25,395 nt of DNA from a virus. The notes beneath the pieces are model-generated. The model searched no databases and was not told the DNA's origin. It saw nothing but the letters and a program-made list of their open reading frames with translations. Location: the IMG/VR virus record IMGVR_UViG_3300032240_000846, positions 1 through 25,395 of that record, one strand, 5' to 3'. Shown here one piece after another: positions 2,499 to 19,809 of this stretch. How positions within the stretch are numbered: the first letter of the stretch is position 1; every line of letters starts with the position of its first letter. Made by a program: the position numbers and the translations under genes.

Positions 2499-3137
2499 AT
2501 GGCTACAACTCCATCATGGGTCATGACGTATGACAACCTGACGTCCACAGTACTTCAGTACTTGGAACGTAAGGATGCCGCTGTCGTCAATGCCATTCCT
2601 ACATTTATTTCCCTTGCCGAGTTTGAGATTGCCCAAGAGATTAAGACTTTGGGGCAATTACAAGTGGCCGAAGCCACCACAACAATCGGCAATGCAACTC
2701 TGCAAAAGCCTGCCCGGTGGCGCAAAACAGTTTCCATGCAGATCACTGTCGATGGCAAATCTCAGCCAGTCTTCCTGCGCAAATACGAATATCTAAAGAA
2801 TTATTGGCCAGATGCTAGTCAGACTAGTATTCCCCTGTATTACGCAGATACCGATTGGGATCATTGGTACTTGGCGCCTACCCCTGATGACACCTATTCT
2901 TTCGAGGTTCTGTACTACGAGCGTATTGCACCGCTCAGTTCAACAAATCAGACCAATTGGCTGACTCAAAACGCACCAAATGCTATGTTGTTTGGCACGT
3001 TGTTGCAGGCCATGCCTTTCCTGAAAAACGACCAAAGAACCATTTTCCAACAAAAGTACACCGAGGCCCTCCAGTCCCTCAAAACAGAGGATGTGGCGCG
3101 TGTTGGTGATCGTCAAGCCGTTGCCGTGGACTCCTAA
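2499..3137 (+). CDS. head-to-tail adaptor protein (gp11/SU10-adaptor type)
   Basis: The 212-residue protein looks like the phage adaptor family that forms the ring below the portal in short-tailed phages (T7 gp11-like/SU10-type adaptor). Visible features are the N-terminal helix (TYDNLTSTVLQYLERKD), the following IPTFISLAEFEIAQEIK helix, a central beta-rich section with WRKTVSMQITV and PVFLRKYEYLKNYWPD, an aromatic stretch (WDHWYLAPTP and FEVLYYERIAPLS), and a C-terminal helical section (MLFGTLLQAMPFLKND). GAGAGGG supplies a strong ribosome binding site. The fibre-like and nozzle genes follow at once, which is the usual order for a tail-completion module. Family assignment is from recognition of the pattern only. 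It contains no cysteine. Confidence 0.68.
   Translation: MATTPSWVMTYDNLTSTVLQYLERKDAAVVNAIPTFISLAEFEIAQEIKTLGQLQVAEATTTIGNATLQKPARWRKTVSMQITVDGKSQPVFLRKYEYLKNYWPDASQTSIPLYYADTDWDHWYLAPTPDDTYSFEVLYYERIAPLSSTNQTNWLTQNAPNAMLFGTLLQAMPFLKNDQRTIFQQKYTEALQSLKTEDVARVGDRQAVAVDS
2815..2828 (+). repeat. copy 1 of 14-bp palindromic motif CTAGTCAGACTAGT
   Basis: CTAGTC-A-GACTAG is a perfect 6-bp inverted repeat around one base. The same 14-mer recurs exactly at 15966-15979, and in reverse complement at 15992-16005, inside the ParB-like gene. This copy lies in the adaptor coding sequence. It is a candidate protein-binding site; chance recurrence is possible but unlikely for a 14-mer in 25 kb. Confidence 0.5.
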
Positions 3138-3139
3138 TC

Positions 3140-4357
3140 ATGACCAGCTATGTAAACCCTTATACAGGCCAGACTATCAGCCCATCGCAAGTGGGTTATG
3201 AGAATCTGACCATCAGTGCAAATACGACCCTTCAGTGGCCTGTCAACGGCAACACATCAAGCGTTGTTGCAAACATCATTGAAGTCACGGCCACCACAAC
3301 TGGCTTGAATTTAATCATGCCTCCTGCAAACGAAGTGTCTGTAGGCCAAACAGCATTGATCAGAAACATTGGCTCTAATCCCTTTACGGTTGTTGACAAT
3401 AATAACAACACGATTGTTTCAGTGTCATCTGGAATTGCTCAGTACATTTATGTCACTAACAACAGCACAGTTTATGGCACTTGGGGTACTGTGCAGTTTG
3501 GTGCTGGTACTTCTGCCGCAAATGCGGCCACGTTGTCTGGGTATGGTCTTAAAGCACTTGGTACCACGCTGAACACGTCAACACCTGTTACTACGTTTTC
3601 ATCCACATACTCTTTAACCACATCAGACCGTGCATCTTTGTACGTTTGGAATGGTGGTGCAGGCACGTTGACACTTCCATCCGCTTCAAGTGTTGGAGCC
3701 GGATGGTTTTCAGTCATCAAGAATGATGGAACTGGCATCTTGAACATTGCTTTGCAAGGCACCGACACAATCGATGGCCAAACAAGTGCTCAACTTCAAA
3801 TTGCCGAATCATTTGTTGTTGTCTCAAGTGGAAGTGCTTGGTACAGCTATGCATACGGTCAATCAGCGACTTTCTTCTTTACGCAACTGGTAAAGAATGT
3901 GACTGGTGGAACTATCACATTGACATCCGCTGAAGCGGCCAATATTGTTCAAGAATATCAAGGTACCTTGACGTCAAACTGTACGATCATTTTGCCGCCT
4001 ACGGTTCAGTTGTATTCTTTGCGAAACATCACGACTGGCGCATATACGCTGACTTTTAAAACAACCAGTGTTGGCGCAACTACAGTTATTCTTCCGCAAA
4101 ATCAAACCATCATTGTTATCTGTGATGGAACCAACGTCTATAACGCGCAGACTGCTACCAGTTCAGGTATTAGTTTCCTGACGTTGGCCAACGGTTCTGC
4201 CGCCTCTCCTTCGATGTCATTTGCAAGCGATACAACAACTGGCGTTTACCTTGCCGCCAGTGGTCAGCTTGGGTTTGCAATCAGCGGATCAAACGCAGGT
4301 ACATTGACATCATCCGGTTTACGCATGCCAGTGGGAATTATCGGTGGAGCCTTCTAA
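3140..4357 (+). CDS. tail fibre-like structural protein, beta-rich
   Basis: This 405-residue protein is rich in Thr, Ser, Asn, Gly and Val and is predicted to be almost all beta. It is built of repeated short strands (for example LIMPPANEVSVGQTALIRNI, LTLPSASSVGAGWFSVIKND, CTIILPPTVQLYSLRNIT). Each block resembles one turn: strand, then a phrase like 'knigsnpftv/gtlni', then a Gly/Ser turn. The C-terminus has ASPSMSFASDTTTGVYLAAS followed by GQLGFAISGSNAGTLTSSGL, a pattern I associate with phage tail fibre and spike proteins. It starts two bases after the adaptor stop. Its TAA shares a base with the nozzle ATG. It lacks a visible receptor-binding tip or chaperone domain, so it may be a fibre shaft, an appendage base or a head decoration. 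Confidence 0.62.
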   Translation: MTSYVNPYTGQTISPSQVGYENLTISANTTLQWPVNGNTSSVVANIIEVTATTTGLNLIMPPANEVSVGQTALIRNIGSNPFTVVDNNNNTIVSVSSGIAQYIYVTNNSTVYGTWGTVQFGAGTSAANAATLSGYGLKALGTTLNTSTPVTTFSSTYSLTTSDRASLYVWNGGAGTLTLPSASSVGAGWFSVIKNDGTGILNIALQGTDTIDGQTSAQLQIAESFVVVSSGSAWYSYAYGQSATFFFTQLVKNVTGGTITLTSAEAANIVQEYQGTLTSNCTIILPPTVQLYSLRNITTGAYTLTFKTTSVGATTVILPQNQTIIVICDGTNVYNAQTATSSGISFLTLANGSAASPSMSFASDTTTGVYLAASGQLGFAISGSNAGTLTSSGLRMPVGIIGGAF

Positions 4358-6123
4358 TGACGGCAAAAGTTGTTACCCTTCAAGTCGGCCCGGGCATCCA
4401 GAGGGACAGCACACAATTTGCTTCTGTGAGTTATGTGGACGGAAAATGGGTGAGATTTCAATATGCCCGTCCCCGCAAGATCGCTGGATATACCGGGTCA
4501 TTTTTGGACGCTTCTGGGATAAGTCGCGGCATGATAATGAGTGCCGAAGACGGAATCAACTACGTGATCTCTGGCTACAGCGGCGGTTTGGAGCAATGGA
4601 CGACGGACAATGATGATGCCGTAGGTTTTGGCCCCACTGCAATCACCACAACGGGTTACACGGCAAGTAATAAAACTTTGTGGCAGATGGACATTGGTTA
4701 CGATGCTTTGGGTAATGCTCAAAACAATCTGATTGCCCATCCCGGCCAAAATCTGAATGACATTTCATCAACAGTAAACACTCGGCCTTTGTTTGGCAGG
4801 TTTACGGGCACTTCCGTGGCCCCTGTAGGCGTTTTTACAGCCACTGGCACCACTACCATTAGCACGCCAACTGTGACGTTTACAACCACGATTGCGGCCA
4901 TTGGCGCAGGCATGACGGTGACAGGAACAGGCATCCCTGCAAATACCACTGTAGTGTCTGCGTTGGAAGTGGCTGGTGTTTGGACTGTGACCTTAAACAA
5001 AAATGCCACGGCATCCGGCACGGTTGTTCTGACTTTTGATAATAACATCTCTGTGTCTGGTGGTATTGTGATGTTGTTTCCTTATTTGTTTGCTTATGGC
5101 AACAACGGCCTGATTGAAAACTGTGCGGCCGGTGACTTTAACAATTGGACGTCTGCTGACTCCAATAAAAACAACGTATCATCGACCAAGGTAGTTAAGG
5201 GTTTGCCACTACGTGGTGGTACTACTTCGCCTGCTGGTTTGTTCTGGACACTAGATTCTGTGGTGCGCGTCACCTATGCACCAACTACGGTAGGCACTCA
5301 AACTTTTTATTGGAAGTATGACCTGATCACTCAGCAGTCATCCATTCTTTCAAGTCAGTGCGTGATTGAGTACGACGGCATCTTCTACTGGTGCGGTACT
5401 GATCGATTCTTGGTCTACAACGGTGTGGTTCAAGAATTGGAAAACAAACAAAACTTTAACTACTTTTTTGACAATCTGAACTACAAACAGCGTCAGAAAG
5501 TCTGGGTCAGCAAAGTGCCTCGCTGGGGTGAAATTTGGTGGTTTTTTCCATCGGGCGACAGCGAAGAGTGCAACGACGCCATCATCTATAACGTGCGTGA
5601 AAAGTGCTGGTATGACGCTGGTCAAGCCATGGGTGCTCGTCGCTCTGCTGGAGTGTTTTCAGAAGTGTTTAGAAGGCCTATTTGGGGTGGAAACGAAGAA
5701 AACACCGCTGGCGCTTACACCCTGTGGCAACACGAAATTGGTACCAATGAGGTTTATACCAACCACGTCAATGCCATTGAGTCTTACTTTGAGACCAACG
5801 TCATTGGCGCCCGTACAGGCCTTGTGGGTTCCGTAGAACAGCCCGGCGACAATTTGTGGACTCGCTGTGAGCGCATTGAACCTGACTTCATTCAAGTTGG
5901 CGAGATGAATTTAATTGTGACTGGTAAATCTTATGCCGATGATGCAGATGATCCGTCAGACCCCTATCCTTTTGATCCAGATACACCGAAAATAGACATG
6001 AAAGAACAGCGGCGCGAGATGCGCCTGCGGTTTATCAGCAACACCCAAAATGGAGATTACTTCATGGGCCGTACCCTGATGAGTCTTGATACTGGCGATG
6101 TACGTGGAACGGGTAACCCATGA
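4357..6123 (+). CDS. tail nozzle / DNA-stabilisation protein (P22 gp10 / T7 gp12-like)
   Basis: The 588-residue protein resembles the beta-propeller nozzle family that closes the tail channel of short-tailed phages and holds the packaged DNA. Recognisable segments are the N-terminal phrase GIQRDSTQFASVSYVDGKWV, FNNWTSADSN (about 264-273), CVIEYDGIFYWCGTDRFLVY, and PRWGEIWWFFPSGDSEECND followed by AIIYNVREKCWYDAG, a highly conserved stretch in this family. Residues about 158-228 form an extra Thr/Val/Gly-rich module (GMTVTGTGIPANTTVV) that looks like an inserted Ig-like or beta-sandwich domain interrupting the propeller. The C-terminus is Asp/Pro-rich, then strongly charged (MKEQRREMRLRFISN). 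Its start overlaps the previous stop by one base; its end overlaps the next gene by four bases (ATGA). Confidence 0.72.
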   Translation: MTAKVVTLQVGPGIQRDSTQFASVSYVDGKWVRFQYARPRKIAGYTGSFLDASGISRGMIMSAEDGINYVISGYSGGLEQWTTDNDDAVGFGPTAITTTGYTASNKTLWQMDIGYDALGNAQNNLIAHPGQNLNDISSTVNTRPLFGRFTGTSVAPVGVFTATGTTTISTPTVTFTTTIAAIGAGMTVTGTGIPANTTVVSALEVAGVWTVTLNKNATASGTVVLTFDNNISVSGGIVMLFPYLFAYGNNGLIENCAAGDFNNWTSADSNKNNVSSTKVVKGLPLRGGTTSPAGLFWTLDSVVRVTYAPTTVGTQTFYWKYDLITQQSSILSSQCVIEYDGIFYWCGTDRFLVYNGVVQELENKQNFNYFFDNLNYKQRQKVWVSKVPRWGEIWWFFPSGDSEECNDAIIYNVREKCWYDAGQAMGARRSAGVFSEVFRRPIWGGNEENTAGAYTLWQHEIGTNEVYTNHVNAIESYFETNVIGARTGLVGSVEQPGDNLWTRCERIEPDFIQVGEMNLIVTGKSYADDADDPSDPYPFDPDTPKIDMKEQRREMRLRFISNTQNGDYFMGRTLMSLDTGDVRGTGNP

Positions 6124-6356
6124 TAAGTTACGACCCACGTGGCATGACTTGGGATCAGTACTGCAAACTGATGGCAGAGTTGTTTGCGCCAAATCAGTTG
6201 GGGTATGTTGATGAAGAAAATTGGAGAGACTGGGTTGATGGTCTCAATGGAATCGGTTATTTTGTGCAGTCAGGAGTGCCTGATCATCGTGGCTACAACT
6301 ATTGGTATGAGTGGGCTCAGCAAATGACTGGCATCATGAATATCTCGCCGCAATAA
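6120..6356 (+). CDS. small conserved phage protein of unknown function
   Basis: A 78-residue acidic, Trp/Tyr-rich protein begins in a 4-base ATGA overlap with the nozzle gene. Its layout (MTWDQYCKLMAELFAPNQLG, a WRDWVDGLNGIGYF core, then a Tyr/Trp-rich C-terminus ending in GIMNISPQ) is one I associate with proteins found beside tail-completion genes in aquatic short-tailed phages. It has no membrane segment or enzyme motif. Translational coupling to the nozzle suggests a virion or assembly role. That is inference. Confidence 0.65.
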   Translation: MISYDPRGMTWDQYCKLMAELFAPNQLGYVDEENWRDWVDGLNGIGYFVQSGVPDHRGYNYWYEWAQQMTGIMNISPQ

Positions 6357-6380
6357 CGCCTAACTATGGAGCAGAATTAA

Positions 6381-6788
6381 ATGTCACCGCAAGAAGCACA
6401 ACAAGTTGAGGCGATTGCTCGCGATTACTTCCTAAAAGAAGCTGGCTCTCAAGAGGGCGCAGACAAGATGATGAACAACCTTGCTCACATCGTTAAAGAA
6501 GAAGGCGCAAAACTCGTTCACATCAACAACGTCCTGTTTCTCCTGCTGGTCAGAGGTAAGGGCGTTGTTGAAATGCACACGATTGGTTTTGAGACAGATG
6601 CCAGCCAATATGCACAAGACATTGTAGAACTTGCCAAGTATGTGAGAAACATCGGAACCAAGTTGTTATACACCTATACACCTACACGAGCATTTGATCG
6701 TGTTGCCAGATTGACTGGTCTTCCAATTAAGAAGACTCAAACCGAAATGCACGGTGTCCCTTTGTACGTTTACGCCGTGGAGTTCTGA
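6381..6788 (+). CDS. putative GNAT-fold virion/internal protein
   Basis: This 135-residue protein has a plausible Gcn5-type acetyltransferase topology: an N-terminal helical part, a strand pair (LVHINNVLFLLLVRGKGVVE and MHTIGFE), a helix (DIVELAKYVRNIG), a strand (KLLYTYTP), a helix with FDRVARLTGLP and a final strand pair (QTEMHGVPLYVYAVEF). This resembles the degenerate GNAT-like internal protein of T7-type phages (gp13), where it sits near the ejection proteins as it does here. The usual acetyl-CoA loop (R/Q-x-x-G-x-G/A) is not clearly present, so catalysis is doubtful. Start is ATG at 6381, with GGAGCAG upstream. Assignment is by overall pattern and is uncertain. Confidence 0.5.
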   Translation: MSPQEAQQVEAIARDYFLKEAGSQEGADKMMNNLAHIVKEEGAKLVHINNVLFLLLVRGKGVVEMHTIGFETDASQYAQDIVELAKYVRNIGTKLLYTYTPTRAFDRVARLTGLPIKKTQTEMHGVPLYVYAVEF

Positions 6789-6789
6789 T

Positions 6790-8703
6790 ATGCCAGCCGC
6801 AATTGTTATAGGAATACTTGGAGCGACTGGCGCAACGGCCGCTATTGGCGCGTTTGTAGCTGAATCTATTATTGGCGCAACGGTTGCCGCAGAAACCGCC
6901 GCAACTATTGGAGCGGCGACTGTTGGTGCTGGTGTTGCGGCCGCTAAAGGTGGTGATGCAAGCGACATCCTTAAAGGTGCGATTCTTGGTGGCGTGACTG
7001 CCGGAGTTGGCTCAGAAGTCGCATCAACCGTTACAGATTCTCTTGTAGATGCCGGTGTTGATTCTGCGCTTGCATCAACCGCAGGTAGCGGCGCGGCAGG
7101 CGCTACAGGTGCGGTTATTCGCGGTGGCTGTATTGGTCGAGGTGGATTAACTGGATTCATCAAAGGCGCTCTTGGCGCAGGTGGCGGTGATTGCTATTGC
7201 GATACTGGTTGCTGTGATACAGGTTGCTGTGATGCTGGCACCACTAGTACTTGCGGCCCTGTTGGATGCGCATCAACCGTAACTACAGGTGGATTGCCAA
7301 CAGGCTGTACTGTGCTTACTTGTACTGCGGGTGATTGTTGCGCGGCCAACTGCTGTTCTGGTTGTTATTGTGACTGCACGACATGCTGTGACTGCACAAC
7401 TTGCTGTGATTCTTCAAAGTGCAATACATGTTGTGATTGCACCACCTGCTGTGATTGCACTACATGTTGCGAATGCATGACTTGTTGCGAATGCATGACT
7501 TGTTGCGAAACATGCTGTTGCGACACTTGCGGTTGTGACACATGTTGCTGTACGGACTGTTGTACTGACTGCTGTACCGATTGTTGCGATACTTGCTGTT
7601 GTACCGACTGTTGTACCGACTGCTGTACTGATTGCTGTACTGATTGCTGTGACTGCTGTACCGATTGCTGTGATTGTTGCGATTGCACTGACTGCTGTGA
7701 CACGTGCTGTACAGATTGCTGTGATACTTGCTGTACGGACTGCTGTGATACGTGCTGTGATTGCTGTACTGACTGCTGTGACTGTTGTGACTGCTGTGAC
7801 TGTTGCTGTGAAGTTAAAGTTCCAAAGGTTAAAGTTCCTAAGGTTAAAGTTCCAAAAGTAAAAGTTCCTAAGAAGAAGGTTGTTACAAAGACATCTACCT
7901 GCACTGGTAAAGCTGGTACTTCCGGTATCCCATGGCTTGATACATCTGCCGACATGTTGACAAGCAGAGGTCAAGGATTGCCCAATCCATTTGGTGTTGC
8001 TACAGAACAATCATTGCCTTTTGCAGGTGGTGGTTTAGCTTATGCAAAAGGTTCTTCTGTTTCTTCATGCATATGCTCATCCATGGTGTGCAAATACGCG
8101 CCTAAGTTTGCGGCATGCTCTGCATCTGAAATGTTGCAAGGCTACAAGTCTCAGGCCAAGGGTTCTATACCTCCACATGTACTAAAACAAATCATGTCTC
8201 ACATTTCACCATTGGGTAACATGGGTGGCATGGCCGCCGGTGGTTTACCTAAAAAATATCAGGAAGCCATGCCCAAAGGCCATGATCCTGAGTTCGTAAC
8301 AGGCATGACTGGCTACTACGCCTGCGGCGGTGGCACAGGTCAATCTGACGACATTCCAGCCATGCTCCATGATGGTGACTATGTGATGGATGCTGACGTG
8401 GTGGCCGCCCTTGGTGACGGCTCCAGCAAGGCTGGCCGCGAAGTCCTTGATGGCTTCCGCAGTCAGATTCCCCATAAACAGTCGGCTCAAGGTAAACCCG
8501 TACCCGCAAAAATTGCAGACGGCGAGTATGTATTTCCAGCAGGTTTTGTTACCGCTCTTGGTGGTGGCGACAACAAAGCCGGGGCAAAGATTTTGGATGG
8601 CCTGCGTGAGAAATTACGCGCACACAAAAGATCGGCGCCCACCAGTAAAATACCCCCTAAGGCGAAATCACCGCTTGATTACATTGAACAGGCGAAAGGT
8701 TAA
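6790..8703 (+). CDS. giant cysteine-rich virion-type protein (about 99 Cys in 637 aa)
   Basis: The start is taken as ATG 6790, one base after the previous stop, with GGAG seven bases upstream; an in-frame ATG at 6754 lies inside the preceding gene. Residues 1-115 are Ala/Gly/Ile-rich and hydrophobic, as in phage internal or ejection proteins. Residues 135-340 hold about 92 Cys in 206 residues, mainly as CC doublets two to three residues apart (CDCTTCC, TDCCTDCC, CDTCC), with Asp and Thr almost the only partners. Four tandem VKVPK units follow (residues 342-361). A Gly/Ser region has a few more Cys (SSCICSSMVCKYAPKFAAC). The C-terminus has two similar modules (HDGDYVMDADVVAALGDG and ADGEYVFPAGFVTALGGG), a motif type I know from phage structural proteins. 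The next gene follows with a 2-base gap and also has a Cys cluster. Function is unknown; metal binding or disulfide cross-linking in the virion are guesses. Confidence 0.85.
   Translation: MPAAIVIGILGATGATAAIGAFVAESIIGATVAAETAATIGAATVGAGVAAAKGGDASDILKGAILGGVTAGVGSEVASTVTDSLVDAGVDSALASTAGSGAAGATGAVIRGGCIGRGGLTGFIKGALGAGGGDCYCDTGCCDTGCCDAGTTSTCGPVGCASTVTTGGLPTGCTVLTCTAGDCCAANCCSGCYCDCTTCCDCTTCCDSSKCNTCCDCTTCCDCTTCCECMTCCECMTCCETCCCDTCGCDTCCCTDCCTDCCTDCCDTCCCTDCCTDCCTDCCTDCCDCCTDCCDCCDCTDCCDTCCTDCCDTCCTDCCDTCCDCCTDCCDCCDCCDCCCEVKVPKVKVPKVKVPKVKVPKKKVVTKTSTCTGKAGTSGIPWLDTSADMLTSRGQGLPNPFGVATEQSLPFAGGGLAYAKGSSVSSCICSSMVCKYAPKFAACSASEMLQGYKSQAKGSIPPHVLKQIMSHISPLGNMGGMAAGGLPKKYQEAMPKGHDPEFVTGMTGYYACGGGTGQSDDIPAMLHDGDYVMDADVVAALGDGSSKAGREVLDGFRSQIPHKQSAQGKPVPAKIADGEYVFPAGFVTALGGGDNKAGAKILDGLREKLRAHKRSAPTSKIPPKAKSPLDYIEQAKG
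7192..7809 (+). repeat. cysteine-codon repeat tract (CC-D/T repeats)
   Basis: The DNA is a degenerate tandem array of codons for Cys, Asp and Thr, with core units of 12 bases (TDCC or DTCC) and 21 bases (CDCTTCC). Cys is encoded by a mixture of TGC and TGT, Asp by GAT and GAC, Thr by ACT, ACC, ACG and ACA. Adjacent units therefore differ at the third base while the amino-acid pattern is kept. The frame stays open over more than 600 bases with many TGN codons, where a one-base error would change everything. This suggests selection for the protein rather than a fresh slippage product. Confidence 0.9.
7813..7872 (+). repeat. four tandem 15-bp units encoding VKVPK
   Basis: Four consecutive 15-base units start GTTAAAGTTCC(A/T)AA(G/A), with single substitutions in unit four (GTAAAAG). 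They encode VKVPK four times, directly after the last Cys codons. Alternating Val/Lys with Pro every five residues gives a strongly basic extended segment. Between the acidic (Asp-rich) Cys tract and the C-terminal modules it could act as a spacer or bind nucleic acid; neither is shown. Confidence 0.88.
8347..8616 (+). repeat. two C-terminal DG(D/E)YV modules in the Cys-rich protein
   Basis: The encoded protein contains two modules of about 41 residues. Both share (I/V)PA, then DG(D/E)YV, then ALG-G, then KAG followed by (V/I)LDG and a charged helix. The first starts near 8347, the second near 8494. The DNA sequences differ strongly, so the duplication is old. Similar modules appear in structural proteins of other aquatic phages as far as I recall, so this C-terminus probably marks the ancestral part of the protein onto which the Cys tract was added. 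Confidence 0.7.
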
Positions 8704-8705
8704 AA

Positions 8706-9884
8706 ATGGCAAACTTACTGCAATCATCGCAAAATAAGACAACGACGGCTCCGAGTTATTACACGGACTACCTGAGTAACCTTGCGTCACAAGGAAAAGC
8801 CGCCGCCTGTGCCGCTCAATATGTGGGCGCCCAGCCCTTGCAAGAGCAGGCTTTCTGTCAAGCGGCCGCTAATTTTGGTGCTCAACAACCAACGGTTAAG
8901 TCTGCCCAAGGTTTGGTAGGCCAAGCGGCCACTCAAAACGTCACAGGAGCCGCCGCACCGTTTCTTCAGGCCGGTACTACTGCCAGCCCTCTTTGCGCCG
9001 CCCAGCCCCTGATTTGCCAAGCCCAAGGTTTGGATATTGGATGCTTGGCCAGTCAGTACATGAGCCCCTACATCAAGACGGCCGTACAAGGTCTGTCTGA
9101 TATTGCTCATCGCAATATTCGCAACAATTTATCTCCTGCGGCCACAGCGGCCGCTGTTGGTTCTGGTCAGTTTGGTTCACAGCGTGGCGCTCAAGTGTTG
9201 GGTCAGATTCAGGCCCAAGCAGAGCAGTGCTTGAACCAGCAAATTGCGCAGATGGAGAACCAAGGTTTCGCGCAGGCACTTCAGGCCGCACAAGCCAAAC
9301 AAAGCGCGCTGGGTAACCTTGCAAGCACCACTGCAACCGCGCAACAAGCACAGAACCAAGCCAACCTTCAAGCCGCTCAAACAGCAACTCAAGCGGCGTC
9401 ACAACAAGGTCAATTGCTCAATCAGGCTGGTACCAATTTGGGTACGCTGGCTCAGACCGGTGCTGGTATGAACTTGGCATGTATCAATGCTTTGGCAACA
9501 CTTGGTGGCCAACAGCAGACGATTGCTCAAAACGCACAGAACTATCCATTGACCAAGCTGGCATCGTTGTCTGGCTTGCTCCAAGGCTACAGCGTTCCTA
9601 CTGGCACGAAGACTACTTTGTGCATGTCGCCATTCTCTGCGGCCGCCGCTTTGGGTACTGGCGCAGTTGGTTTGGCCAAGAATTTGCCGGGTATCGTGAC
9701 TGGTTTGAAAACCGCTTTCCCAAAAACTTTTGGCGGTTCATCTGATTGCTGTTGCTGTGACTGTTGCTGTAATTGTTGTTTCCAGTGTGCGGCAACAGGC
9801 GGTTCAATCAAAGCGAAAGCACGTGGCTCAATGGGTTGTGCATCAACTTATACACGTGGCGCTTTGCCATTCAAGAGAGGTTAA
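8706..9884 (+). CDS. internal/ejection-type virion protein with second Cys cluster
   Basis: This 392-residue protein is rich in Ala, Gln and Leu and has the layout of phage ejection or internal virion proteins. It has an N-terminal SYYTDYLSNLASQGKAAA helix, a central GLSDIAHRNIRNNLSPAATA motif with GSGQFGSQRGAQVLGQIQAQ, a long coiled Gln/Ala helix (about residues 170-265), and a Gly-rich C-terminus. It carries about 19 Cys: scattered residues in the N-terminal half (for example AACAAQ, AFCQAA, LCAAQPLICQAQ) and ten within 14 residues at 348-361 (DCCCCDCCCNCCFQC). Its tail GCASTYTRGALP resembles GCASTVTTGGLP in the previous protein. AAAGG overlapping the previous stop region is the ribosome binding site. 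Together the two genes look like partner virion components. Confidence 0.72.
   Translation: MANLLQSSQNKTTTAPSYYTDYLSNLASQGKAAACAAQYVGAQPLQEQAFCQAAANFGAQQPTVKSAQGLVGQAATQNVTGAAAPFLQAGTTASPLCAAQPLICQAQGLDIGCLASQYMSPYIKTAVQGLSDIAHRNIRNNLSPAATAAAVGSGQFGSQRGAQVLGQIQAQAEQCLNQQIAQMENQGFAQALQAAQAKQSALGNLASTTATAQQAQNQANLQAAQTATQAASQQGQLLNQAGTNLGTLAQTGAGMNLACINALATLGGQQQTIAQNAQNYPLTKLASLSGLLQGYSVPTGTKTTLCMSPFSAAAALGTGAVGLAKNLPGIVTGLKTAFPKTFGGSSDCCCCDCCCNCCFQCAATGGSIKAKARGSMGCASTYTRGALPFKRG
9747..9788 (+). repeat. cysteine codon cluster in the second Cys-rich protein
   Basis: Ten of 14 consecutive codons after the Asp codon are Cys, using both TGC and TGT. The pattern CCCC-D-CCC-N-CC-F-Q-C resembles the end of the longer tract in the gene upstream. 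It is the only dense cluster in this protein. Confidence 0.85.
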
Positions 9885-9887
9885 TTT

Positions 9888-11399
9888 ATGGCTGAACGTA
9901 AACAACAAGACTACAGTTTTGCTGGAGGTCTAGGCAATATCAATCCTGCCGAGATGCCAGAAGAATCGATTCAGAAGTATCGAAATACACTGGACGAACA
10001 AGTTAAGGCATTACAAAAACGCTATGAAGAACCCAACTGGTTCAAGGTAGCCGCTGGGTTTGCTAAACCGCAACTTGGTGGCTTTCTTGCGTCACTTGGT
10101 AGCGCCTCTGAGGCTCTTGGTGAGAACGTAGAACAGCAACGTGAACAGCAATTGCCCATCGCACAAATGAAAGTGCAAATTGAGCAAGCCAATATGTTGC
10201 TGTCTCAAAAGCAAAAGCAAAACCAAATTTTCCAAGATTGGCTGGCCAAGAACACCGGGCCCGATGGAAAAATTACACCGATGGATGCGACAACATACAG
10301 CCGTATTACTTCTCTTGGTGAAAATACTGACGTTGCTAAAGCGGCAAGTAAATACTACGAGGGTGCCAAATCTGGTCTGGAAATTACTGCTGGCGCCGCA
10401 GAAACTTCTGCACGTTACCCACAACTTGGTACTTCATTGGACAACTTCACTAAGTTCCAATTGAGTCCCAATGCTGATGAAAAGGCTATCAATCAAAGCC
10501 GTGCCGATTACATCAATCAGCTTAACAATTCGATGCCTCCGCAAACGGATAGAACCACTTGGATGGCTATGAGCGTTCCAGACAAACAAAAACTTGTTGA
10601 CGAGTACGGTCGTCGTCAGTTGGAAGCTGGCATGAACACAGAAGCAGGTTTGCAACAACAAGCATCACAGGCTCCTTCTCGTTTGGCACTGCTTGGTTCA
10701 GTGCGCGATTTGGCCATGGGCGTTGGGCTCAAAGATGTAGAAAAAGATGGCAAAACAATTTCTGGCCGAGATCAAATGGCTGGTTTGCTCAATTACTTCG
10801 GTGGTAACAATCCATTTGAAGTGTTGGCACGTGCGGCCGCCGATGGCAAGTTGGGCGACAAGTTGGCAGAGATCGATACTTATGCTCGACAAAACGCAAT
10901 GTCTCCTGAGGCCCGTGATCACTTCCAGAAGTTGGCAAAACTGCTGGCCGAGAACCAAGTCACGTTGCGCAACGGTGCATTGAACCCGACCGATCAGTTC
11001 TCTGCTCTCCAGCAGGCTGGTTCACCAAACATTGGCAACTCACAAACTGCTTTGGTTTCGTTGGTTGACTTGATGGGTCACGGCGAGAAGAACATGTTGG
11101 ACAAGTACCGTTATGTGCTGGACAACAAGGTGCCTTTCCGTCAATTGGGTGTTGATCCAGAATATCTGGCCAAGCAAGCAGAGTATGCCAAAGAGCATCG
11201 CCGTATCGCCACATCAAACCCGTTTGAAAATCCACCTTCATGGTACAACCCTGCCGCTGGTGCCAAGCCTGCACCAGCCGCTGGAAAACCAGCCGGCTCA
11301 CCTAGTGGCACACCAAAAAATCGTCCAAATGAACGAACAATGCCGGATGGATCGGTTTGGATTCGTCAATCAGATGGATCATATAAACCCAAAGGTTAA
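9888..11399 (+). CDS. putative internal virion / DNA-ejection protein
   Basis: A 503-residue mostly helical protein rich in Gln, Ala, Lys and Asn lies in the same tight operon (3-base gap; AGAGAGG ribosome binding site). The N-terminal 100 residues contain a helical pair (SIQKYRNTLDEQVKALQKRY and EPNWFKVAAGFAKPQLGGFL) often seen in podophage ejection proteins. Residues about 80-115 are a Gln-rich coiled coil (ENVEQQREQQLPIAQMKVQI). A Pro/Ala/Lys-rich linker near 455-485 leads to the C-terminal tag MPDGSVWIRQSDGSYKPKG, which looks like a small capping or binding motif. It contains no cysteine at all, in sharp contrast to the two preceding proteins. Function is inferred from position and composition. 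Confidence 0.6.
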   Translation: MAERKQQDYSFAGGLGNINPAEMPEESIQKYRNTLDEQVKALQKRYEEPNWFKVAAGFAKPQLGGFLASLGSASEALGENVEQQREQQLPIAQMKVQIEQANMLLSQKQKQNQIFQDWLAKNTGPDGKITPMDATTYSRITSLGENTDVAKAASKYYEGAKSGLEITAGAAETSARYPQLGTSLDNFTKFQLSPNADEKAINQSRADYINQLNNSMPPQTDRTTWMAMSVPDKQKLVDEYGRRQLEAGMNTEAGLQQQASQAPSRLALLGSVRDLAMGVGLKDVEKDGKTISGRDQMAGLLNYFGGNNPFEVLARAAADGKLGDKLAEIDTYARQNAMSPEARDHFQKLAKLLAENQVTLRNGALNPTDQFSALQQAGSPNIGNSQTALVSLVDLMGHGEKNMLDKYRYVLDNKVPFRQLGVDPEYLAKQAEYAKEHRRIATSNPFENPPSWYNPAAGAKPAPAAGKPAGSPSGTPKNRPNERTMPDGSVWIRQSDGSYKPKG

Positions 11400-11401
11400 T
11401 C

Positions 11402-12739
11402 ATGAGCACCTTGTCTGATTACAACAACAATCCCGGCAATCTGCGTCCTCCCAAAGGTGTGACCTACGAGGGGCAGATTGGTGTGGACGACAAAGGCTTT
11501 GCGATTTTTGAAAACAAAAAGTATGGCCAAACCGCTCTTATAAATGATGTAACTCGAAAATTGGAAAAGGGTGTTGATACGCCAGAAAAGTTTGTAAACA
11601 AGTTTTCGCCTGCTGGTTCTGAAAATGACGAAGACTCACGAGAGAACTACAAAATCTATCTGGCGCAACAACTAGGCCTTAAAAGCACCAGCGATCCATT
11701 TCCAAAAGATGCCGCAGAACGCCTAGCAAAGGCTGTAGGCGCTTTTGAAGGTGGCACATGGGCCAACCCTCAAGGTGAAGAAGAAAAGCCTGCTGAGGCC
11801 GCGCCTGAACCTGCCGGTGAAGACGGCAACACAGTAGCACCCAAGGGGTCTTCCGATATTCCCGGCAAAGCTGAATCTGACAAACCTTTTCTTGGAATTG
11901 TTGGTGGTGTAACTGGCGCGGGTATTGCCGGTAATGTGGAGGCAGGCAAGAGAATTCTTCCGTTAATTCCCAACTTGATTAACAAAGTTACGGGTAAAGA
12001 GATTGATGTCAACAAGCCTGCATCTCGGATGGCATTGCAAAACTGGCTCAACTCAATGTTGCAGTCGAATGGCCAAAACGTAAAACTTCCAGTGTCTGAG
12101 TTAGAAAAACTGACTGGTACAAAGATTCGCACCATGGGTGAACTAGGCGACGCTTACAAGGCCATACAGGCTGTTGAAGAGCAAAAGGTTACCAAGCCTA
12201 TGGTCAAGATGGTAGAAGGCCGCCCCGGCGTTTTTGAGCAGACTGGGCGCATGACTTCTTCCACTATTCCCGGCAAACCTGCTGTTGATCTGACACCATA
12301 CGAGGTCAAGTCCACCGGCCCAGTCCGTCAGGCGCTCGGACGTCAAATGCAAACGACAGGCGAAGTAATGAGAAGTGCATTGCCATCCGTTGGCCGTGTG
12401 GGTATTGGTGCTTTGGGTGGCGCCAATGCCATGATGACTGGTTACGACGCATGGGAAATGGCGCAAAAACTTAAAGCAGAAAAAGACCCAAGCTGGGTGG
12501 ACTATGCACGCTTGGCAACTAAATCTATGGCCACGGTTGGTGGTGGCTTGAGCATGCTTCCATTTGGTATCACTCAAGGTGCTGGCCTTGCTTTGCAGGC
12601 ACCTGAAGCGGCCATCTCGTTGGGCGAGAACATTTATGGTGGCGCCAAAGAATTGGGTAAACGCCGCAAAGAAGCCACCAAAGAGGATACGGATCGGATG
12701 CTCATGAATGTTGACCCCATGGGCAATCCGATGCCATGA
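11402..12739 (+). CDS. virion protein with N-terminal lysozyme-like NNPGNLR domain
   Basis: The first 125 residues match the pattern of virion-associated muramidase-like domains: YNNNPGNLRPPKG (7-19), GQIGVDDKGFAIFENKKYGQ, a helix with ALINDVTRKLEKG, TPEKFVNKFSPAGSEND and the terminal ENYKIYLAQQLG helix. This family is thought to cut a local hole in peptidoglycan during DNA entry. A Glu/Pro/Ala linker (about 125-160) leads to a Gly-rich segment (FLGIVGGVTGAGIAGNV) and helical regions with more Gly/Ala-rich, possibly membrane-interacting stretches (VGRVGIGALGGANAMMTGYD; GGGLSMLPFGITQGAGLALQ). That combination fits an ejected channel protein carrying its own lytic domain. No cysteine is present. 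It is the last gene before the strong terminator. Confidence 0.68.
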   Translation: MSTLSDYNNNPGNLRPPKGVTYEGQIGVDDKGFAIFENKKYGQTALINDVTRKLEKGVDTPEKFVNKFSPAGSENDEDSRENYKIYLAQQLGLKSTSDPFPKDAAERLAKAVGAFEGGTWANPQGEEEKPAEAAPEPAGEDGNTVAPKGSSDIPGKAESDKPFLGIVGGVTGAGIAGNVEAGKRILPLIPNLINKVTGKEIDVNKPASRMALQNWLNSMLQSNGQNVKLPVSELEKLTGTKIRTMGELGDAYKAIQAVEEQKVTKPMVKMVEGRPGVFEQTGRMTSSTIPGKPAVDLTPYEVKSTGPVRQALGRQMQTTGEVMRSALPSVGRVGIGALGGANAMMTGYDAWEMAQKLKAEKDPSWVDYARLATKSMATVGGGLSMLPFGITQGAGLALQAPEAAISLGENIYGGAKELGKRRKEATKEDTDRMLMNVDPMGNPMP

Positions 12740-18860: not shown

Positions 18861-19107
18861 CCGCTGAATCGGACGCGCACTGGCGGTAGCGATTCGGGGA
18901 CAGTCCTACTACGGGAAAGATGCTGAGACAGGACAATGGGTGGCGAAGTGAGTGCCCTTGCATCGAACGACTGACGGGTCAGGTAACTCCGACGGGTATC
19001 TGTGAAGGCTCATCCTCTCTTGGGAGGGCTGAGTCTGTCCACCTCTGGGTATCAAGGGATTTAAAGTAAGGTTGAAATAAAATATCAATAAGGGCCGGGC
19101 CGGGGCC
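18861..19107 (+). ncRNA. second structured noncoding segment, class unknown
   Basis: No frame gives a convincing protein and the stretch is dense in pairing sequences. GAATCG/CGATTC (18866-18871 with 18890-18895); GGACAG (18898-18903) with CTGTCC (19035-19040) closing a large multi-branched domain; within it GTCCT/AGGAC (18903-18907 with 18930-18934, competing for one base), CTGA-CGGG-TCAG (18971-18982), and a bulged 9-bp hairpin CTCATCCTC/GAGGGCTGAG (19009-19033). It has no separate promoter that I can see, so it may be made by read-through from the promoter at 18701 past the terminator. It might instead be an extended leader for the oxygenase gene. It does not match tmRNA, RNase P RNA or a group I intron core by eye. 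Confidence 0.5.
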
Positions 19108-19167: not shown

Positions 19168-19809
19168 ATGATGGATCAGTTGAACGAGACGCACTACTTT
19201 TCCACACCAATTTACATGGTGAAGAAAATGGAATTTTTGGAGACTGTGCGTAAGGTTTCCAATCGCTACATTGCCGCTTCGCAAAAGCGCAAGAAGGGCA
19301 AAAAGTACGTTGTGCTGATGACAGCCAGCTACATGGCTGAACCTGAGGTCGCAGAGTTTGCTCAGTACATTTCTCAAACCGCATGGAACATCTTGGCGTC
19401 TCAGGGCGCGAACATGGACAACCTTGTGACTTACTTCACCGAGATGTGGACGCAAGAGCACAATCATTTGTCATCGATGGAAACGCACTTTCATGGCCGT
19501 GGTGCGCAGATCAGCGCGTTCTACTTTTTGGACGCACCAAAGAATGGTTGCAAGTTCGTGATCCATGATCCACGTCACGGTAAAGTGATCACCAATCTGC
19601 CGCCAAAGAACAGCAAAGACATTACGCAAAATTCCCATCAAATTGTGTTCACGCCAGAGGCTGGTACGTTGATCCTGACCAATGCATGGGTGCCACATTC
19701 ATTTACAAAAAACTTTAGTCGTGAGACCGTTCGGTTTGTCCACATGAACCTGTCTGTGGCCGTGAATGAGAATGCAGTCAAAGAAGAAAAGTCTGTGGAG
19801 GTAATATGA
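19168..19809 (+). CDS. 2OG-Fe(II) oxygenase-like protein
   Basis: The 213-residue protein resembles the phage-borne 2-oxoglutarate/Fe(II) oxygenase family (2OG-FeII_Oxy_5 type). The double-stranded beta-helix core is visible: THFHGRGAQISAFYFLDAP (106-124) with candidate iron-binding His107/109, FVIHDPR (130-136), FTPEAGTLILTNAWVPHSF (161-179) with the distal His177, and ETVRFVHMNLSV (186-197) with Arg189 as candidate 2OG contact. Such enzymes hydroxylate proteins, nucleobases or small molecules; the substrate here is unknown. The exact iron ligands cannot be fixed by eye. Two ATG codons lie in tandem at 19168/19171 after AAGGAG. It is the only apparent metabolic-type enzyme in the window, with its own dyad promoter right after the ncRNA locus. 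Confidence 0.72.
   Translation: MMDQLNETHYFSTPIYMVKKMEFLETVRKVSNRYIAASQKRKKGKKYVVLMTASYMAEPEVAEFAQYISQTAWNILASQGANMDNLVTYFTEMWTQEHNHLSSMETHFHGRGAQISAFYFLDAPKNGCKFVIHDPRHGKVITNLPPKNSKDITQNSHQIVFTPEAGTLILTNAWVPHSFTKNFSRETVRFVHMNLSVAVNENAVKEEKSVEVI

Follow-up and report, generated by a model that had tools for sequence, protein, structure and literature searches.

Cysteine-dense tracts in two putative ejection proteins of a phage lineage

The central result of this study is a tract of 206 residues holding 92 Cys, 42 Thr and 34 Asp in a protein, here named A, encoded by the virus record IMGVR_UViG_3300032240_000846 (IMG/VR), of which a stretch of 25,395 nt (25.4 kb), referred to as the window, was analyzed. 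Tracts of this kind recur in related phages with different spacers, the Cys content of A is coupled to that of the neighboring protein B, the tract is followed by a basic strap, and the next protein of the set, C, is free of Cys. A preliminary description of the same DNA had reported 206 residues with about 92 Cys at 7192-7809, in frame from 6790, and translation reproduced this exactly; right about the tract of the window, it had overlooked the Cys tail of B, the Lys/Pro strap and the recurrence in relatives. Such a composition would arise by chance with a probability of about 1e-115 (binomial, 1.25% Cys), and the remaining window genes contain about 1% Cys on average, protein B (19 in 392) excepted. 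A reassigned TGY codon was ruled out by this low level in the other window genes and by C and D, which have none. The earlier statement that no phage family of such Cys density is known agreed with our family, PDB, Pfam and literature searches: A and B had no sequence match in PDB or Pfam, the window tract alone retrieved no Pfam family at E 10 in a search whose HMMER filters may drop biased sequence, and no description of such Cys-dense phage proteins was found in the literature searched, which had subscription papers outside its reach.

On the 5' side of A lie an endolysin gene, an SU10-type adaptor, a stabilisation-type virion protein and two small genes, and A is followed by B, C and D (Table 1). 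As judged from gene content and order, the A-B-C-D layout is that of a podovirus ejection set. It is similar to P22 gp7/gp20/gp16 and T7 gp14/gp15/gp16 in gene order after the adaptor and stabilisation tail genes, in the helical, Gly/Ala/Gln-rich character of the proteins and, by annotation in relatives, in a last member with a probable peptidoglycan-hydrolase-type domain, but differs from them in the 99 Cys of window A and the 19 Cys of B, as well as in the basic segments of these proteins. The ejection-type operon proposed earlier is supported by the adaptor and stabilisation genes upstream and by the Cys-free and putative peptidoglycan-hydrolase-type proteins downstream, and from the gene order we infer that A and B are packaged and ejected. 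A PDB sequence search found no match to solved structures; the P22, T7 and epsilon15 sets are themselves without recognizable mutual relationship (PMC8402733). Gene order is identical in Caudoviricetes sp. ctpbd312 (MW202545), a complete genome of 57 kb from Manatee Spring, in which the gene syntenic with D is annotated as SLT transglycosylase; protein D of the window had no Pfam match in a profile search. In this genome A (UOF78444) contains 36 Cys and B (UOF78443), which ends in a tail of CCS repeats, contains 33, the two being annotated only as hypothetical and 'coronavirus S2 glycoprotein'. The C-terminal third of UOF78444 is 75% identical to that of window A, whereas the tract sequence is different.

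Table 1. Features of the window discussed in the text, with the evidence on which each rests.
Feature	Position (nt)	Strand	Evidence
SU10-type adaptor (head-tail), marker of the tail module	2499-3137	+	family match
Virion structural / stabilisation-type tail protein (phrog_3287)	4357-6123	+	match; synteny with 'phage stabilization protein' of MW202545
Protein A gene, 637 aa, 99 Cys	6790-8703	+	ORF from ATG 6790 to stop 8703, homologues
A, N-terminal Gly/Ala-rich helical region	6790-7191	+	structure model, weak fold match
A, tract with 92 Cys among its 206 residues (135-340), disorder predicted	7192-7809	+	translation, model
A, GCASTxxxGGLP motif, like C-terminal GCASTxxRGALP of protein B	7264-7299	+	sequence comparison
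A, cationic strap rich in Lys and Pro that immediately follows the tract; it has KVPK repeats and a net charge of +11 over 25 aa	7816-7890	+	charge scan, repeats
A, conserved C-terminal region, two similar halves (DGDYVMDA.. / DGEYVFPA..)	8281-8700	+	homologue alignment
Gene of protein B (392 aa with 19 Cys), modelled as long helices	8706-9884	+	ORF, model
B, Cys tail CCCCDCCCNCCFQC (C348-C361)	9747-9788	+	translation, homologues
B, basic C-terminal cap TGGSIKAKARGSMGCASTYTRGALPFKRG, missing from Cys-free B	9795-9881	+	homologue comparison
Protein C gene, third of the A-B-C-D set, 0 Cys	9888-11399	+	ORF, Cys count
Protein D gene, fourth of the A-B-C-D set, 0 Cys	11402-12739	+	synteny with MW202545
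2OG-Fe(II) oxygenase (PF13759), distribution follows the Cys clade	19168-19809	+	profile searches

Relatives were gathered by a search with A, which gave 28 IMG/VR loci, and by one with an alignment of B, which gave 79, plus two Burkholderiales/Betaproteobacteria MAG contigs (L110 and L111). When Cys content was compared among these homologues, as the preliminary description had proposed, tracts were found to recur with 22-117 Cys per A, and three states could be distinguished. Cys-rich relatives combine such an A with 17-33 Cys in B (two B cut by contig ends excepted); Cys-poor relatives have 2-9 Cys in A and 6-16 in B, loci L007 (23 Cys in an unfinished frame of B) and L014 standing apart; and Cys-free relatives have 0-4 Cys in A and none in B, about 33 of them being essentially Cys-free in both proteins. 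No complete A with 10-21 Cys occurred among the homologues counted. The Cys-bearing part of the family comprises 26 complete pairs, in which a B with at least 17 Cys always accompanies an A with at least 20 and never one with fewer (Spearman 0.75): B carries 17-33 Cys in 14 of 14 pairs with A at 20 or more and 7-16 in 12 of 12 pairs with A below 20. In the Cys-free part, only 12 Cys occur in the 31,024 aa of 34 A proteins, and the 14,325 aa of 37 B proteins lack Cys altogether. Protein C has no Cys in the window or in the 64 unique sequences counted (32,432 aa). Among the controls, T7 gp15 and gp16 and P22 gp7, gp20 and gp16 contain no Cys, T7 gp14 one and gp13 three. Therefore, Cys is normally kept out of such proteins, a rule that this lineage breaks in A and B only.

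In a phylogeny of B computed after masking Cys and removing gappy columns, which comprise the tail, Cys in B has two origins, one in a clade with support 100/99 and one in L014, and the tract of A changes at least six times. In L014 (6456-7529), a phage that does not belong to the main Cys clade, B gained its 16 Cys a second time and separately, next to an A that has none. A paired test of A against the B tail on supported branches comprised three independent pairs, too few for significance. The tract can be dispensed with, since siblings in the same clade, such as L031, manage with an A of 2-9 Cys. In this context, the preliminary description had taken homologues lacking the tract with the flanks joined, together with proof of an assembly artefact, as evidence against it; tract-less homologues do exist, but they are Cys-poor and carry other sequence between the flanks, and an artefact was not borne out.

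The tracts themselves differ in sequence and spacers, being built on CCTD in the window, CCED in L111, CTPCVPCTPC in L045, CCCDTSCCNTC in L072 and CSCC in L043. What is kept across these sequences seems to be the amount of thiol and not the sequence, bulk thiol being apparently under selection. In most Cys-rich A proteins no more than about 10 residues separate the strap from the point where the dense Cys run ends; in L049, L051 and L053 the automatic distance was upset by a second Cys cluster, the basic stretch still following the main tract. In a scan for the most basic 25 residues of A outside the C-terminal region, 16 Cys-rich proteins had net charges between +4 and +12, with a mean of 8.1, and the same scan gave means of 3.4 in Cys-poor and 2.8 in Cys-free relatives; in the sequences compared, the Lys/Pro strap is absent from Cys-poor relatives. 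The GCASTxxxGGLP motif also lies inside A of several phages. The two halves of the C-terminal region read DGDYVMDADVVAALGDGSSKAG and DGEYVFPAGFVTALGGGDNKAG, and a near-invariant tail, HKRSAPTSKIPPKAKSPLDYI, is common to very distant phages. Within this region, Cys512 (8323-8325), in YYACGGGTGQ, tracks the Cys clade, and Cys-free relatives have Gln, Asn, Gly, Ser or Asp there.

By its sequence, the design of B is that of A, namely a Cys segment and then a basic segment. The Cys of high-Cys B proteins lie mostly in the tail, which in relatives contains CGD or CCS repeats, and after it comes the cap, of the form GGLIKSKARGxxGCASTxxRGALPxKKG. Outside the tail, Cys259 is present in 33 of 35 members of the Cys clade, with Asp in 27 of 37 Cys-free relatives, and Cys306 in 30 of 35. 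These single sites (B 259 and 306, A 512) replaced polar, probably exposed residues, as expected for exposed cross-link sites.

A tract of this kind might also result from neutral expansion of a TGYTGY DNA repeat with no role for the protein, since tandem repeats are present and viral contigs often contain chance TGY-rich frames that resemble antisense shadows cast by repeat genes. The codons speak against this explanation. Third positions of the window tract are mixed (TGC 45 and TGT 47, GAC 16 and GAT 18, all four Thr codons), which bears out the earlier remark on third-base variation of the Cys, Asp and Thr codons. The CGY and TAY codons each lie one transition from TGY, at codon positions 1 and 2; despite the mixed third positions, Arg (CGY) is missing and Tyr (TAY) occurs only once or twice in the window tract, both being low in the tracts of relatives too, and therefore the protein is held beyond the DNA repeat, in support of the selection on the protein suggested previously. 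In close pairs, Cys is retained about as well as other residues and its codons change silently: 43 of 46 Cys are kept between L043 and L044 (87% identical), with silent changes in 8 of the 43 codons, and 56 of 66 between L049 and L051 (82% identical), with silent changes in 12 of 56. The remaining five frames of the window tract would encode Val/Ala, Leu with stops, Gln-rich sequence and the like, and relatives invariably read the Cys frame out of the six. Codon pattern, pair retention and constant frame together make neutral repeat growth insufficient; with the repeated gains in A and B, the differing repeat units and the linked strap and B tail, this explanation is largely refuted and seems hardly credible.

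An assembly artefact was ruled out, since the tracts recur in independent assemblies (L045 and L046, from two metagenomes, are identical, and L049 and L053 are 99% identical) and in the complete genome MW202545. Similarly, a wrong frame or an antisense reading (7365-7955, minus strand) was ruled out by the plus-frame homology of both flanks. That minus-strand ORF, 196 aa and rich in Gln and Ser, is a shadow of the Cys tract. A strict DNA pattern for such tracts found no further phage in viral contigs; a loose one matched at least 286 places, and among the matches listed the Cys-rich frames were mostly short, looked like antisense shadows and in no case carried the C-terminus of A. Such shadows make most 'Cys tracts' obtained from DNA-pattern matches in viral contigs look doubtful.

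Ejection proteins exit the virion at least partly unfolded and form a conduit spanning the periplasm (PMC8402733), and the periplasm is an oxidizing compartment (PMC8954989). We hypothesize, as a tentative reading, that A and B are ejection proteins with a thiol module which would be disulfide-welded in the oxidizing periplasm, fixing the DNA conduit. The module would consist of a disordered Cys tract and then a basic segment, the Lys/Pro strap in A and the KAKARG-type cap in B. In this scheme, every functional step of which we infer, packaging, ejection and disulfide formation included, A and B would be synthesized in the host cytoplasm in reduced form, enter the virion together with C and D and pass through the portal before the DNA. 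On reaching the periplasm, inter- and intra-chain disulfides would form among their Cys, thereby welding the section of the trans-envelope conduit made of A and B and preventing it from sliding back, and the basic segments would anchor the conduit to DNA, phospholipid or the wall as an anionic partner. Like the T7 and P22 ejection proteins, protein C would remain Cys-free. Disordered thiol-rich segments with basic segments behind them, on the first two proteins, would fit a chain that travels soft and reduced and becomes cross-linked on arrival. By modelling, B was predicted with long helices and a disordered Cys tail (mean pLDDT 62, pTM 0.29), and in A the tract was disordered and the model confident only at about 71-130 and in parts of 525-615. 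Residues 73-140 of A formed a small helical bundle, whose ten best fold matches were Tim17/22/23-family or complex I B14.7-type membrane subunits, but the model was of low confidence, Z reached only 6-8 across 57-69 residues, and there was no Pfam match. This weak match may reflect a common helical arrangement, and it agrees with a possible Gly/Ala-rich membrane-seeking segment. In the mitochondrial disulfide relay, oxidation of Mia40 substrates beyond the membrane stops the back-sliding of a threaded Cys-bearing chain. The likeness to A and B would be one of working only, since there is no twin CX3C/CX9C fold and the host enzyme would be of the DsbA type.

The main rival to the disulfide weld is a metal-thiolate store, in which A and B would hold clustered Zn, Cu or Fe and thus compact or protect the virion thiols, or deliver metal to the host or withhold it. 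We consider it somewhat unlikely. In several tracts a Cys content of 30-50% is combined with acidic spacers, namely D/E in those of the window, L030 and L111; bound metal would prevent oxidation of the thiols ahead of ejection, and the clade has an Fe(II)-dependent oxygenase. Like metallothioneins, the tracts are very rich in Cys and have few aromatics. However, CxC, which is common in metallothioneins and a hallmark of them, was rarer than in shuffled sequence in all A tracts tested, six of them markedly so (z -0.2 to -6.8), a deficit caused in part by the four-residue repeat phase of some tracts; CxxC and CxxxC tended to lie above expectation, and His was almost lacking. Other tracts have no acidic spacers (CTPCVPC, CSSC), and the window tract matched no metallothionein family of Pfam, is far larger and lies within a large phage protein. 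The CxC depletion weakens the metallothionein reading and would leave room for other metal sites, and no feature of the sequence discriminates between a disulfide and a thiolate-metal bond, both of which suit the CC and CCC runs.

The same bonds might instead serve inside the virion, along the lines of the rod in the preliminary description, if the tracts oxidized in the capsid after lysis, stiffening or closing a disulfide-laddered internal core that reduction would open on infection. Keratin-associated (ultra-high-sulfur) proteins have 30-50% Cys in CC and CxPC-type repeats, a style that the tracts resemble, and their bulk cross-linking offers a working analogy; they differ in that the window tract has no Pfam match, is of phage origin and is linked to a cationic strap. 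The tract is also predicted to be disordered when alone. Nevertheless, the portal is narrow and passed at least partly unfolded (PMC8402733), and no phage reductase was found in the 40 records scanned, many of them fragments; such a core appears improbable. Still less convincing is a redox shield or thiol sink, in which the Cys would scavenge oxidants or electrophiles for the packaged DNA or the injection site: it would suit a conservation of bulk thiol only, but leaves the restriction to A and B, the basic strap and the single conserved Cys in conserved parts unexplained.

Returning to the disulfide weld, neither thioredoxin nor glutaredoxin of phage origin was found in 40 records, many of which are fragments, so these phages would depend on host enzymes. 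When eight Cys-clade and six Cys-free records were compared without bias, PF13759 was the sole family that occurred in seven or more Cys-clade records and was missing from all Cys-free ones. Profile searches detected it in 12 of the 13 Cys-bearing records with a size of at least about 30 kb, a count that includes L014 (26.2 bits, just below the cut-off), and in 2 of 17 Cys-free records (Fisher p 2e-5). The Cys-bearing and Cys-free groups are mostly single clades, so the pattern reflects descent as much as a link, and the putative connection of the oxygenase to A and B is a lead. A fuller scheme, in which the weld acts as a one-way oxidative latch for genome delivery and the phage 2OG-Fe(II) oxygenase modifies the tract or the Lys/Pro strap, is in our view unlikely. 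About 190 bases before the oxygenase gene, a Betaproteobacteria-1 RNA (RF02932, 99 bits) was found at 18862-18979; it also adjoins the oxygenase in L250, L252 and L248. Scans of four further Cys-clade pieces showed tRNAs near its place or nothing, and this RNA was missing from two Cys-free records and part of a third. In L252 (MW202545), six tRNA genes (Ser, Thr, Asn, His, Tyr, Pro), none of them for Cys, are clustered at 6121-6696 beside this RNA. The window has no tRNA-Cys, and the tRNAs found in seven other Cys-clade records do not include one either.

Altogether, this phage lineage has up to 117 Cys in proteins of a kind that is normally Cys-free, which suggests a previously undescribed, sulfur-based route through the bacterial envelope. 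The scarcity of Cys in the ejection proteins of model phages and of most of the family might be expected for chains that unthread and refold across an oxidizing space, and its extreme abundance in exactly two proteins, together with the strap, makes conduit assembly and retention testable by simple thiol chemistry. If the latch and the oxygenase modification were true, injection would be locked by thiols and the phage would possess a hydroxylated structural material; no description of either was found. Periplasmic cross-linking, if true, would be a new viral use of host redox chemistry, and metal holding would make the tracts a virion-borne metal store. Under either of these two readings, A and B would be a natural ultra-high-thiol protein material from viruses of bacteria.
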